Of a DNA stretch of 64,000 bases, positions 42,944 to 46,124 are shown in pieces. Both the position numbers and the translations under genes were made by a program. The stretch is from Mycolicibacterium alvei (lineage in GTDB: Bacteria > Actinomycetota > Actinomycetes > Mycobacteriales > Mycobacteriaceae), in assembly GCF_010727325.1 (NCBI RefSeq), contig NZ_AP022565.1, positions 1,302,001 through 1,366,000 of the forward strand, read 5' to 3'. Below the pieces are notes generated by a model. That model was not told the origin of the DNA and made no database searches. It worked only from the letters and a program-made list of their open reading frames with translations. Within the stretch, counting starts at the first letter, position 1; the number at the start of each line of letters is the position of its first letter.

Positions 42944-45517
42944 CTAGAACTCCTCGTCCTCGGCGTCGTCGCCGTTGGCGTCGGACCCACCGCGGATCAG
43001 CATCAGCGTGCCGGCCAACTCGTCGGGTTTGACGAGGACCTCACGCGCCTTCGACCCCTCGGACGGACCGACGATGCCGCGGGTCTCCATGAGATCCATC
43101 AGCCGGCCCGCCTTGGCGAACCCGACCCGCAGCTTGCGCTGCAGCATCGAGGTGGACCCGAACTGCGAGGACACCACCAGTTCGACGGCCTGCAGGAGGA
43201 CGTCCATGTCGTCGCCGATGTCGGGGTCGACGTCCTTGCGCTCACCCGCCTTGACCGCGGTGACACCCTCGACGAACTCCGGCTCGGCCTGGGTCTTGGT
43301 GGCCTCGACGACGGCGTGGATCTCTTCGTCGGTGATGAACGCACCCTGCATACGCAGCGGCTTGTTGGCGCCCATCGGCAGGAACAGGCCGTCGCCCATA
43401 CCGATCAGCTTCTCGGCACCGGGCTGGTCCAGGATGACGCGGCTGTCGGTGAGCGACGAGGTCGCGAATGCGAGCCGGGACGGCACGTTGGTCTTGATCA
43501 GACCGGTGACGACGTCCACCGACGGCCGCTGGGTGGCCAGCACCAGGTGGATGCCTGCGGCGCGGGCTTTCTGCGTGATGCGCACGATGGCGTCCTCGAC
43601 GTCGCGCGGCGCGGTCATCATCAGGTCGGCGAGCTCGTCGACGACCGCCAGGATGTACGGGTAGGGCTTGTAGACCCGCTCGCTGCCCAGCGGCGTGCTG
43701 ATCTCGCCGGAACGCACCTTGTCGTTGAAGTCATTGATGTGGCGGACCCGGGACGCCTTCATGTCCTGGTAGCGCTGTTCCATCTCCTCGACCAGCCAGG
43801 CCAGTGCCGCCGCGGCCTTCTTGGGTTCGGTGATGATCGGCGTGATGAGGTGCGGAATACCTTCGTACGGGGTGAGTTCCACCATCTTCGGGTCGATCAG
43901 GATCATCCTGACCTCTTCCGGGGTGGCCCGCGCCAACAGTGAGACCAGCATCGAGTTGACGAAGCTGGACTTACCGGAGCCGGTCGAACCGGCCACCAGC
44001 AGGTGCGGCATCTTGGCCAGGTTCGCCGAGACGAAGTCGCCCTCGATGTCCTTGCCCAGGCCGATCACCAGCGGGTGGTGGTCGCGGCGCGTCGACGGGG
44101 CGGTGAGCACGTCGGACAGCCGCACCATCTCGCGGTCGGAGTTGGGCACCTCGATGCCGACGGCGGACTTGCCGGGGATCGGGGCCAGCATGCGGACGCT
44201 TTCGGTGGCGACCGCGTAGGCGATATTGCGGTGCAGCGCGGTGATCTTCTCGACCTTGACGCCGGGCCCGAGCTCGACCTCGTAGCGGGTGACGGTCGGG
44301 CCGCGGGTGCAGCCGGTCACGGCCGCGTCGACCTTGAACTGCTCCAGCACCGAGGTGATGGAGTCTTCCATCTGGTCGTTGGCGGCGGTGCGCAGCTTCG
44401 GCGGATCGCCGGCGATCAGCAGGTCGAGCGACGGCAGCGTGTAGGGGCCTTCGATCACCCGGTCCATGACCAGGGTGTCGTCGGTTTTCGGTTTGCTCTC
44501 GGCCTTCTTGCGGCGAGGTTTGACCGCCGGCTCGGGGACGGTCGGTGCGTCCTCGGACAGCGGGTAGTTGTCCATCGGAGTGCCGGTCGGCGCCTTCGGC
44601 GCCTCGATGGCGGCTGTCGGCCAGGTCTGGGCCTGCGTGTCGCCGCGCGACGTGTCGTCGTCGTAGTAGCCGTCGGACAGATCGTCGTAGTCGTCGTCGA
44701 GATCGGACCCGTCGTACTCGCCGTCGTCGTACTCGCCGTCGTCGTACTCGTCGTCGTAGTCATCGTCGTGGAACGCCCGCGTGCTGAACATGTGCTGCAG
44801 GGTCGAGGGCACCTCGCGGATGGTCGTGCCCGTGATGAGCAACAAACCGAACAACACGCCCATGAACAGCAACGGTGCGGCGATCCACTCGGTCAGGCCG
44901 TCGGACAGGGGTCCGCCGATGGCGAAGCCGATGAATCCGGCGGCGTGCTGTCGTGCGATCGGATCCTGCGGCGATCCCGACCACAGGTGCCACAGGCCGA
45001 GCATCGGCAGCGCGATCATGGCCGATCCCAGGATCAGCCGGGGCCGCGCCTCCGGGTCCGGCTCGGTGCGCATCAGCACGACGGCGATGACGCCGAGGAT
45101 GACGGGCGTGAGCACCACCGGCCCACCGATCAGGGTGCGCAGGGCGGTGTCGATCCACTGCCCGACCGGGCCGGCCGCGTGGAACCACGAGCTGGCGGCG
45201 ACGACGACCGCGATGCCGAGCAGAGCGAGGGCCAGGCCGTCACGACGATGACCGGGTTCGATATCGCGGGCGCGGCCCACCGAGCGGGCGGTCGAACCGG
45301 CGCCCTTGGCGAGCATCAACCACCCCGCGCGAGCGCCCTGACCGAGCTTCTGTCCGGCGGCCGAGACCGGCGAGTGCTGTGGCCGGCGAGCGGGCTTGCG
45401 CCGTGGCGCAGCCGGGCGACCCTTACGGGCCGGTGCCTGACGCCGCGAACCGCCCCGCGGGCTGGCGTTCGACCTGCTCGAACGCGCTCCGGATCGGCCG
45501 GCGGTCTTGTTAGCCAT
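42944..45517 (-). CDS. ftsK: DNA translocase FtsK
   Basis: FtsK pumps DNA at the septum and activates XerCD during chromosome segregation. The ATG at 45517 gives 857 residues. It starts with a Arg/Lys/Ser-rich tail (residues 3-60). Four transmembrane helices follow (about 95-280), then a highly acidic Asp/Tyr-rich linker encoded by GAC repeats. The RecA-like motor has Walker A VAGSTGSGKSSF and Walker B ILAVVDELADLMM. The gamma DNA-reading domain sits at the C-terminus (LLQRKLRVGFAKAGRLMD). It is convergent with argA. Confidence 0.97.
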   Translation of the reverse strand: MANKTAGRSGARSSRSNASPRGGSRRQAPARKGRPAAPRRKPARRPQHSPVSAAGQKLGQGARAGWLMLAKGAGSTARSVGRARDIEPGHRRDGLALALLGIAVVVAASSWFHAAGPVGQWIDTALRTLIGGPVVLTPVILGVIAVVLMRTEPDPEARPRLILGSAMIALPMLGLWHLWSGSPQDPIARQHAAGFIGFAIGGPLSDGLTEWIAAPLLFMGVLFGLLLITGTTIREVPSTLQHMFSTRAFHDDDYDDEYDDGEYDDGEYDGSDLDDDYDDLSDGYYDDDTSRGDTQAQTWPTAAIEAPKAPTGTPMDNYPLSEDAPTVPEPAVKPRRKKAESKPKTDDTLVMDRVIEGPYTLPSLDLLIAGDPPKLRTAANDQMEDSITSVLEQFKVDAAVTGCTRGPTVTRYEVELGPGVKVEKITALHRNIAYAVATESVRMLAPIPGKSAVGIEVPNSDREMVRLSDVLTAPSTRRDHHPLVIGLGKDIEGDFVSANLAKMPHLLVAGSTGSGKSSFVNSMLVSLLARATPEEVRMILIDPKMVELTPYEGIPHLITPIITEPKKAAAALAWLVEEMEQRYQDMKASRVRHINDFNDKVRSGEISTPLGSERVYKPYPYILAVVDELADLMMTAPRDVEDAIVRITQKARAAGIHLVLATQRPSVDVVTGLIKTNVPSRLAFATSSLTDSRVILDQPGAEKLIGMGDGLFLPMGANKPLRMQGAFITDEEIHAVVEATKTQAEPEFVEGVTAVKAGERKDVDPDIGDDMDVLLQAVELVVSSQFGSTSMLQRKLRVGFAKAGRLMDLMETRGIVGPSEGSKAREVLVKPDELAGTLMLIRGGSDANGDDAEDEEF

Positions 45518-45676: not shown

Positions 45677-45994
45677 ATGCCTGTTGTCGTCGTCGCCACC
45701 ATGAAGGCCAAGCCCGAATCCGTCGACGCTGTGCGCGAGGCCTGCACCAACGCGGTCGCAGCCGTCCACGAGGAGCCCGGTTGCCAGCTGTATTCGCTGC
45801 ATGAGGCCGACGGCACCTTCGTCTTCGTCGAGCAGTGGGCCGACGCCGATGCCCTCAAGGCCCACAGCACCGCTCCGGCGATCGGCGCCCTGTTCGGCTC
45901 GATCGGCGAGCTGCTCGACGGCGCCCCCGATATCAAAATGTTGCAACCCGTCGTCGCGGGTGATCCCGGCAAAGGACAGCTGCGGGCCGGCTGA
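45677..45994 (+). CDS. ABM-domain monooxygenase-like protein (Rv2749-like)
   Basis: The 105-residue ferredoxin-like protein resembles small cofactor-free monooxygenases (antibiotic biosynthesis monooxygenase family): VVVVATMKAKPESVDAVREA, CQLYSLHEADGTFVFVEQW and HSTAPAIGALF. It is probably dimeric. The substrate is unknown. Its TGA overlaps the first ATG of the 32-bp repeat array, which links it to the SDR gene. Rv2749-Rv2750-Rv2751 have the same order. Confidence 0.87.
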   Translation: MPVVVVATMKAKPESVDAVREACTNAVAAVHEEPGCQLYSLHEADGTFVFVEQWADADALKAHSTAPAIGALFGSIGELLDGAPDIKMLQPVVAGDPGKGQLRAG

Positions 45995-46124
45995 TGAGCG
46001 CTTGCGCGAAGAAGAGAACGCACTGATGAGCGCTTGCGCGAAGAAGAGAACGCACTGATGAGCGCTTGCGCGAAGAAGAGAACGCACTGATGAGCGCTTG
46101 CGCGAAGAAGAGAATGCACTGATG
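45992..46124 (+). repeat. Four 32-bp tandem repeats encoding overlapping 10-codon mini-ORFs
   Basis: Four copies of a 32-bp unit (TGATGAGCGCTTGCGCGAAG...) start at 45992, 46024, 46056 and 46088. A fifth TGATG at 46120 begins the SDR gene. Copy 4 has one C-to-T change. Each unit opens with TGATG, a stop overlapping a start, and spells the peptide [10 protein letters not shown]. The array is thus a chain of four translationally coupled mini-ORFs linking two enzymes. MIRU elements in M. tuberculosis also join genes by overlapping small ORFs, but the unit here is shorter. Copy number probably varies between strains. Confidence 0.95.

Follow-up and report, generated by a model that had tools for sequence, protein, structure and literature searches.

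Mycobacterial interspersed repetitive units (MIRUs) are the closest described system to the repeat considered here. A review describes MIRUs as seemingly mobile elements, whose insertions fall at start codons and which contain an open reading frame (ORF) coupled to the gene (PMC12548453). Their unit length is 46-101 bp (PMC3914561), the MIRU of senX3-regX3 being of 77/53 bp (PMC4213456, PMC2453075), and one paper confines them to M. leprae and the M. tuberculosis complex (PMC4213456). This report addresses a 32-bp repeat of Mycolicibacterium alvei, present in a 64,000-nucleotide stretch of its chromosome (NCBI RefSeq assembly GCF_010727325.1, contig NZ_AP022565.1, positions 1,302,001 to 1,366,000), referred to as the window. 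Four tandem copies lie between a gene for an ABM-domain protein (PF03992) and a gene for a mycofactocin-coupled SDR (NF009467, TIGR03971), here named the ABM/SDR junction. It is likely that these are copies of a dispersed repeat, found mostly at stop/start junctions, which relays ribosomes from the ABM gene to the SDR gene whatever the copy number.

Tandem Repeats Finder places the array at 45991-46124, with a period of 32, 4.2 copies, 99% matches and a score of 261, the top of 11 rows for the window. Every unit begins with GATG after a T, so that each TGA shares one base with the ATG that follows. The coordinates (Table 1) confirm the four tandem units with stop-start overlaps which the original prediction had described, including a fourth peptide that differs from the first three, the tail of repeat unit 4 being one base different. 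Its arithmetic, in which a 32-nt unit resets the phase through TGATG, is also right, and 32 nt is the favoured pitch at junctions. The 25-mer TGATGAGCGCTTGCGCGAAGAAGAG, searched with up to three mismatches, has 11 matches in the 6.0-Mb genome, four of which are the ABM/SDR array, and the reversed control has none; the array is therefore not a chance pattern. After termination of the ABM gene at TGATG, a ribosome would start again on the overlapping ATG, synthesise a peptide of 10 residues, terminate at the next TGATG, and go on in this way to the start of the SDR gene. Each copy would close the preceding reading frame and open the next, and the SDR gene would be reached by repeated termination and re-initiation. 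Judged from the arrangement of stops and starts, such a relay is probable, and the mini-ORFs would then be translated.

The repeat is widely dispersed. Its 20-bp core, GATGAGCGCTTGCGCGAAGA, occurs in the host genome 14 times exactly and 6 times with one mismatch, over 11 places; with up to three mismatches it gives 26 matches and the reversed control 1. The idea that the unit would also lie between other gene pairs is borne out by copies between hisD and hisC, between a phosphatidylinositol-mannoside acyltransferase-like gene and pimA, and, as a pair 32 bp apart, before a moaE-like gene; these gene names are presumed from the sequence context. Four 30-bp in-phase units with the core GATGAGCGCTCGCGCGAAGA lie in the same genome at G000:C1:1410455-1410564, antisense to what appears to be the coding frame of a gene. 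Across the genus, the core with up to one mismatch is present in 101 of 148 genomes, reaching 82 copies in G144, and the reversed control is absent from all 148. An exact scan of named genomes gave at least 80 loci; among the 80 listed, 69 are labelled Mycobacterium, Mycolicibacterium, Mycobacteroides or Mycobacteriaceae, and 11 are metagenome-assembled genomes with other labels.

The core is matched by 51 of 298 genomes order-wide, and by none of 20 genomes from other genera of the host family. Four other families of the order do have matching genomes: f2 has many of them, f12 has four and f6 has one (with 14 copies), and f4 gives two single matches. The 32-bp pitch recurs in f12, where one array (L297, G189:C82:34800-35800) carries at least 19 tandem 32-bp units with the core GATGAGCGCGTGCGCGAAGA and enters the start of a gene that presumably encodes an ABC ATPase. 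Most f2 loci read (L284-L295) hold the core as the 3' part of a longer composite unit repeating at 75-93 bp, with a 5' part like the 77-bp unit described below, and this composite gives the impression of a fusion or a split of two repeat families. A variant that lacks the start of the core, GACGAGCGCTTGCGCGAGGA, occurs in tandem at a pitch of 31-33 at L424-L428, with up to 8 units in G086, and some of these arrays come after a gene in frame 0.

Placement relative to the upstream gene is strongly biased. The upstream frame was called with a codon model trained on the window and applied to the 150 nt before each array, and the TGA frame is the one in which the upstream gene meets the repeat's own TGA (in TGATG or ATGA). 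This frame is found upstream in 51 of 57 clear arrays at named loci (86 arrays in all), against 19 of the 1305 clear GATGA sites that served as controls in those loci. The larger array, mini-ORF and cluster sets were gathered from several searches, include f2 and f12 loci, and are non-random; in them, the TGA frame accounts for 170 of 211 clear arrays (284 distinct arrays, 73 unclear) and, once related upstream flanks are collapsed, for 91 of 118 clear clusters (153 clusters, 35 unclear). Frame 0, which reads DERLREE straight through, accounts for 11 of the 118. MIRUs are said, in work attributed to Supply et al. in 1997, to enter sites written DTGA.

The spacing of the copies follows their context. 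Junction tandem arrays have a pitch of 32 in 66 of 86 cases (49 of 60 clusters), and frame-0 tandem arrays have a pitch of 33 in 5 of 7 (4 of 6 clusters). Pitches that are multiples of three are found in 4 of 6 in-frame versus 9 of 60 junction clusters (Fisher p 0.012 by cluster, with few in-frame cases; 0.0075 by array). With a pitch of 32, frame 1 of a unit becomes the TGA frame of its successor, and each mini-ORF thereby ends on the next start; a pitch of 33 leaves an open frame open. Such a pattern would be expected were insertions and expansions to persist only where translation stays intact, and selection would keep those insertions that leave translation unbroken. Junction mini-ORFs with a readable stop have an overlapping ATG, GTG or TTG at that stop in 251 of 288 cases, and the last unit of an array stops on an overlapping start in 119 of 147, after setting aside 13 that lack an ATG and 20 that run off the stretch. 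The 12-nt tails of pitch-32 arrays are 87% identical within arrays (203 pairs) and 50% between arrays (2775 pairs), which makes local duplication, following one initial arrival, the probable way in which arrays grow; they would shrink by local deletion.

Orthologous junctions are observed in empty, 1-, 2-, 3- and 4-copy states. One genome per species was compared, and the variation seen is between species. The ABM/SDR junction is syntenic in the genomes read, and among the 30 fetched, M. alvei has 4 copies, G020 has 2, and G140 and G127 have 1 each. No copy is present in 22, including the sister genome G123, and 9 of the 22 have a plain TGATG or TAATG overlap; diverged copies are present in G053 and G081, G008 is unclear, and in G062 no SDR gene was found beside the ABM gene. 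Another 20 junctions, chosen mostly for long matches past the ABM end and thus a biased sample, gave 12 after 8 unparsed ones were dropped: one copy in the more distant G027, diverged copies in G026 and G098, a degenerate one in G032, and none in 8. The comparison of copy number put forward in the original prediction thus returns 4, 2, 1, 1 or 0 between species. The unit is neither unique to this locus nor fixed in number, whereas a unique locus with a fixed number would have counted against that prediction.

The same contrast of empty and filled sites is seen at other junctions. The hisD/hisC junction is filled in 7 of 29 genomes, with one copy in five (one with a frame-changing extra base), two in G062 and three in G076, and it is an empty TAATG in G118, G020 and G134. 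Near relatives with an empty site have TAATG or GTGA and a strong Shine-Dalgarno (SD) sequence directly upstream of hisC, so the insertion places a mini-ORF at the former start of hisC. The junction before pimA is filled in 9 of 30 genomes, the nearest empty sites being TGAGCCATG (G118) and TGACCATG. On a 29-genome tree built from gap-free columns of three loci, the minimum number of presence/absence changes, which does not separate gains from losses, is 3 for ABM/SDR, 6 for hisD/hisC, 3 for pimA and 9 for miaB; scored as absent were the diverged ABM/SDR copies (G053, G081), G062, and the unparsed miaB of G081, whose match length fits no insert.

These sites bear on whether the array is an ordinary local minisatellite, a variable number tandem repeat (VNTR) made by replication slippage, with mini-ORFs as a by-product of a unit that contains TGATG. 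Like VNTR minisatellites, the repeat forms tandem arrays of variable copy number, and its copies are nearly identical within an array while tails are locus-specific, so array growth itself is probably local slippage or recombination. Unlike VNTRs, however, the repeat has a core that is dispersed and that favours one reading frame relative to the upstream gene. The 20-bp core sits at many unrelated junctions in the 101 genomes, with a strong bias of both frame and pitch, and single copies occupy junctions at which relatives have none; new loci cannot be seeded by slippage alone. Such dispersal and such empty sites largely refute the minisatellite explanation already, and we consider it very unlikely. 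The repeat would instead have spread as a mobile or copied element.

The range of 0-4 copies at ABM/SDR also fits a copy-number rheostat under selection, in which array length tunes SDR translation. A precedent is M. tuberculosis fpg1, where the length of an upstream repeat shows a modest correlation with the mRNA level (PMC2734929). However, the array is missing from the sister genome G123, whether by loss or from the outset, 22 of 30 genomes have no copy at this junction, and tuning and tolerance fit the data alike. A selected rheostat is therefore rather unlikely, and a putative effect of copy number on the SDR level is possible. The repeat is regarded here as mostly selfish or neutral, and as transparent to translation.

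Copies also lie within coding sequences. In miaB, a 33-bp in-frame insert (11 residues) precedes a conserved FAKLLR-like stretch in 13 of 29 genomes, the other 16 being without it, and it is doubled in G062 and G144. At G000:C1:1178582, a triple 33-bp array forms an N-terminal extension. In this respect the repeat resembles Rickettsia palindromic elements (RPEs), short repeats in frame within protein genes (PMC10969869). In-frame insertion into a conserved protein gene is seen here in miaB, yet it is a minority context, given the 11 of 118 clear clusters in frame 0. Unlike RPEs, which are palindromes of about 150 bp (PMC10969869), the in-frame copy is 33 bp, has no stable hairpin, and belongs to a repeat whose main habitat is the stop/start junction.

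Table 1. Features of the ABM/SDR junction, in window coordinates, and the in-frame copy in miaB, in genome and locus handles
Feature	Position	Strand	Description
ABM-domain gene, 105 aa	45677..45994	+	TGA stop 45992-45994 overlaps mini-ORF 1 start
Repeat unit 1	45993..46024	+	GATGAGCGCTTGCGCGAAGA core and 12-nt tail AGAGAACGCACT
Repeat unit 2	46025..46056	+	32 bp
Repeat unit 3	46057..46088	+	32 bp
Repeat unit 4	46089..46120	+	Tail AGAGAATGCACT, one base different
Mini-ORF 1	45994..46026	+	10-residue peptide; TGA overlaps ATG of mini-ORF 2
Mini-ORF 2	46026..46058	+	Peptide identical to mini-ORF 1; TGA overlaps ATG of mini-ORF 3
Mini-ORF 3	46058..46090	+	Peptide identical to mini-ORF 1; TGA overlaps ATG of mini-ORF 4
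Mini-ORF 4	46090..46122	+	Variant 10-residue peptide; stop overlaps SDR start codon
Mycofactocin-coupled SDR gene, 275 aa	46122..46949	+	ATG at 46122-46124
MiaB in-frame repeat insert	G000:C1:1317361 and L340-L369		11 residues

Several observations weigh against a dispersed repeat that relays ribosomes across junctions. In the host genome, a clear TGA frame upstream is found at only 5 of the 11 core places (up to one mismatch), the remainder being two in frame (one of them an N-terminal extension), one antisense, one in frame 1, and two unclear. In 4 of the 48 named arrays for which both frames are clear, the gene that follows lies on the opposite strand, an arrangement that needs no relay. 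Another pitch than 32 is found in 11 of 60 junction clusters, 33 in 7 of them, and mini-ORFs there run on past the units. No overlapping start is present at the end of 37 of the 288 junction mini-ORFs, and the mini-ORF of the host's own pimA copy ends on a TAG two bases before the ATG, close but with no overlap. Computed anti-SD pairing at the downstream start of hand-picked junctions shows no consistent gain with the repeat. Finally, no mobilising enzyme was found, Y1 being the only transposase family searched.

The pairing values differ from junction to junction. At ABM/SDR, filled sites give -4.2 (three) and -10.4 (the fourth), and empty ones -3.4 to -6.1 (ten). At hisC, pairing is weaker in filled sites (-2.0 to -8.8, six) than in empty ones (-10.7, seven), and at pimA it is -4.9 to -7.6 in filled sites (nine), -5.2 in the two nearest empty sites, and -5.7 to -9.3 in five more distant ones. 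Supply of an SD sequence was rejected as the role of the repeat, since pairing is not regularly better at filled junctions. A unit without systematic SD gain makes coupling likelier than fresh initiation at hisC.

That the insertion parts hisC from its strong native SD also fits a regulatory leader, in which the mini-ORFs would serve the downstream gene as an attenuator that senses cysteine or arginine, or as a ribosome-stalling relay, and a mini-ORF at 32-nt pitch does have 10-11 codons, one of them for Cys (or its replacement) and several for basic residues. However, one and the same unit precedes genes as unrelated as hisC, pimA, SDR and moaE-like, its Cys codon is often changed between loci (CGC, GGC), and the peptide differs at 33-nt pitch or in frame 0. 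The Rfam search gave no match, and no significant RNA fold was found (z -1.02 to 0.91). A sensing leader is thus highly unlikely.

Short length, dispersal, many copies and a frequent position near gene ends are features of repetitive extragenic palindromic (REP) elements and of intergenic repeats of the miniature inverted-repeat transposable element (MITE) type, which share the extragenic bias. A REP-like element spread by a REP-associated tyrosine transposase (RAYT) or another Y1 transposase is, however, extremely unlikely. A single 32-nt unit forms no stable hairpin (-3.2 kcal/mol, z 0.91), whereas REP elements are hairpin-forming palindromes; terminal inverted repeats, for the MITE comparison, were not separately searched. 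Nor does the repeat track the enzyme: of 20 element-rich genomes, 7 match Y1_Tnp (PF01797), with 6 above the cut-off, and 13 have no match, while 4 of 20 genomes that lack the element match it, which weakens this explanation further. A phage or plasmid origin was also rejected. The exact core is absent from the viral contigs searched, the phage collection searched gave no match, and the plasmid side gave one weak Caballeronia match (E 0.4).

A dispersed, mostly junction-placed repeat that probably relays ribosomes by stop-start overlap can now be set beside the MIRUs. The likeness noted in the original prediction holds in principle. Many dispersed copies are present in a mycobacterial chromosome, most of them lie between genes, at start codons, and hold an internal ORF that overlaps the stop of one neighbour and the start of the other, and the tandem copy number varies at a locus, here between species (PMC12548453, PMC3914561). 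Unlike the MIRU, with its unit of 46-101 bp (PMC3914561), this 32-bp unit is common in other mycobacteria and is matched in four further families of the order. The published ETR-D primer has no exact match in 396 genus genomes, and one-mismatch sites in 17. Since the comparison is with published descriptions of MIRUs and the unit falls outside their length range, the repeat is called MIRU-like and not a MIRU. The core, its complement, its variant and its peptides were not found in the open literature, subscription papers being outside this scope and a prior description possible, and the unit is not described in the portions examined of MIRU typing papers and reviews in the open literature.

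A separate junction repeat of 77 bp (GTGAGGATCGCAGCGAGG...AGCGAGGACCGGAGCGA...GAGTCGAGCC followed by ATGA), with an overlapping ATGA, is also present in these mycobacteria. It is single in the host genome at G000:C1:3624701 (L305), before a pknA-like gene, and tandem at 77 bp in G027, G066 and G076 (L308, L316, L333). Its length is that of the classical MIRU, and its host genomes are not known to be of the tuberculosis complex. Elsewhere in the window, at 44654-44769 on the minus strand, GTC-rich coding repeats of 12/15/30 bp encode an acidic stretch rich in Asp and Tyr, within a long ORF which we take, by our own reading, to be FtsK-like.

At somewhat less than an even chance, we put forward the broader view of a minimal self-spreading repeat of about 32 bp, which survives because it can be translated safely in any frame it meets: by stop and restart at junctions at 32-nt pitch, by DERLREE read-through within genes at 33-nt pitch, and by relay along successive 10-codon ORFs, which reach at least 19 units in one relative. 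If true, no shorter translation-relay element would be known, and the repeat would supply both stop-start couplers and novel protein loops; in miaB it lengthens a conserved enzyme by 11 residues, once or twice over. The natural series of one operon junction, with 0 to 4 re-initiation steps (elsewhere at least 19), would make the cost and reach of bacterial termination-re-initiation directly measurable. The repeat could also be a typing marker for non-tuberculous mycobacteria. If it is read correctly here, MIRU-like junction repeats are not confined to the tuberculosis complex, and may be as short as 32 bp.
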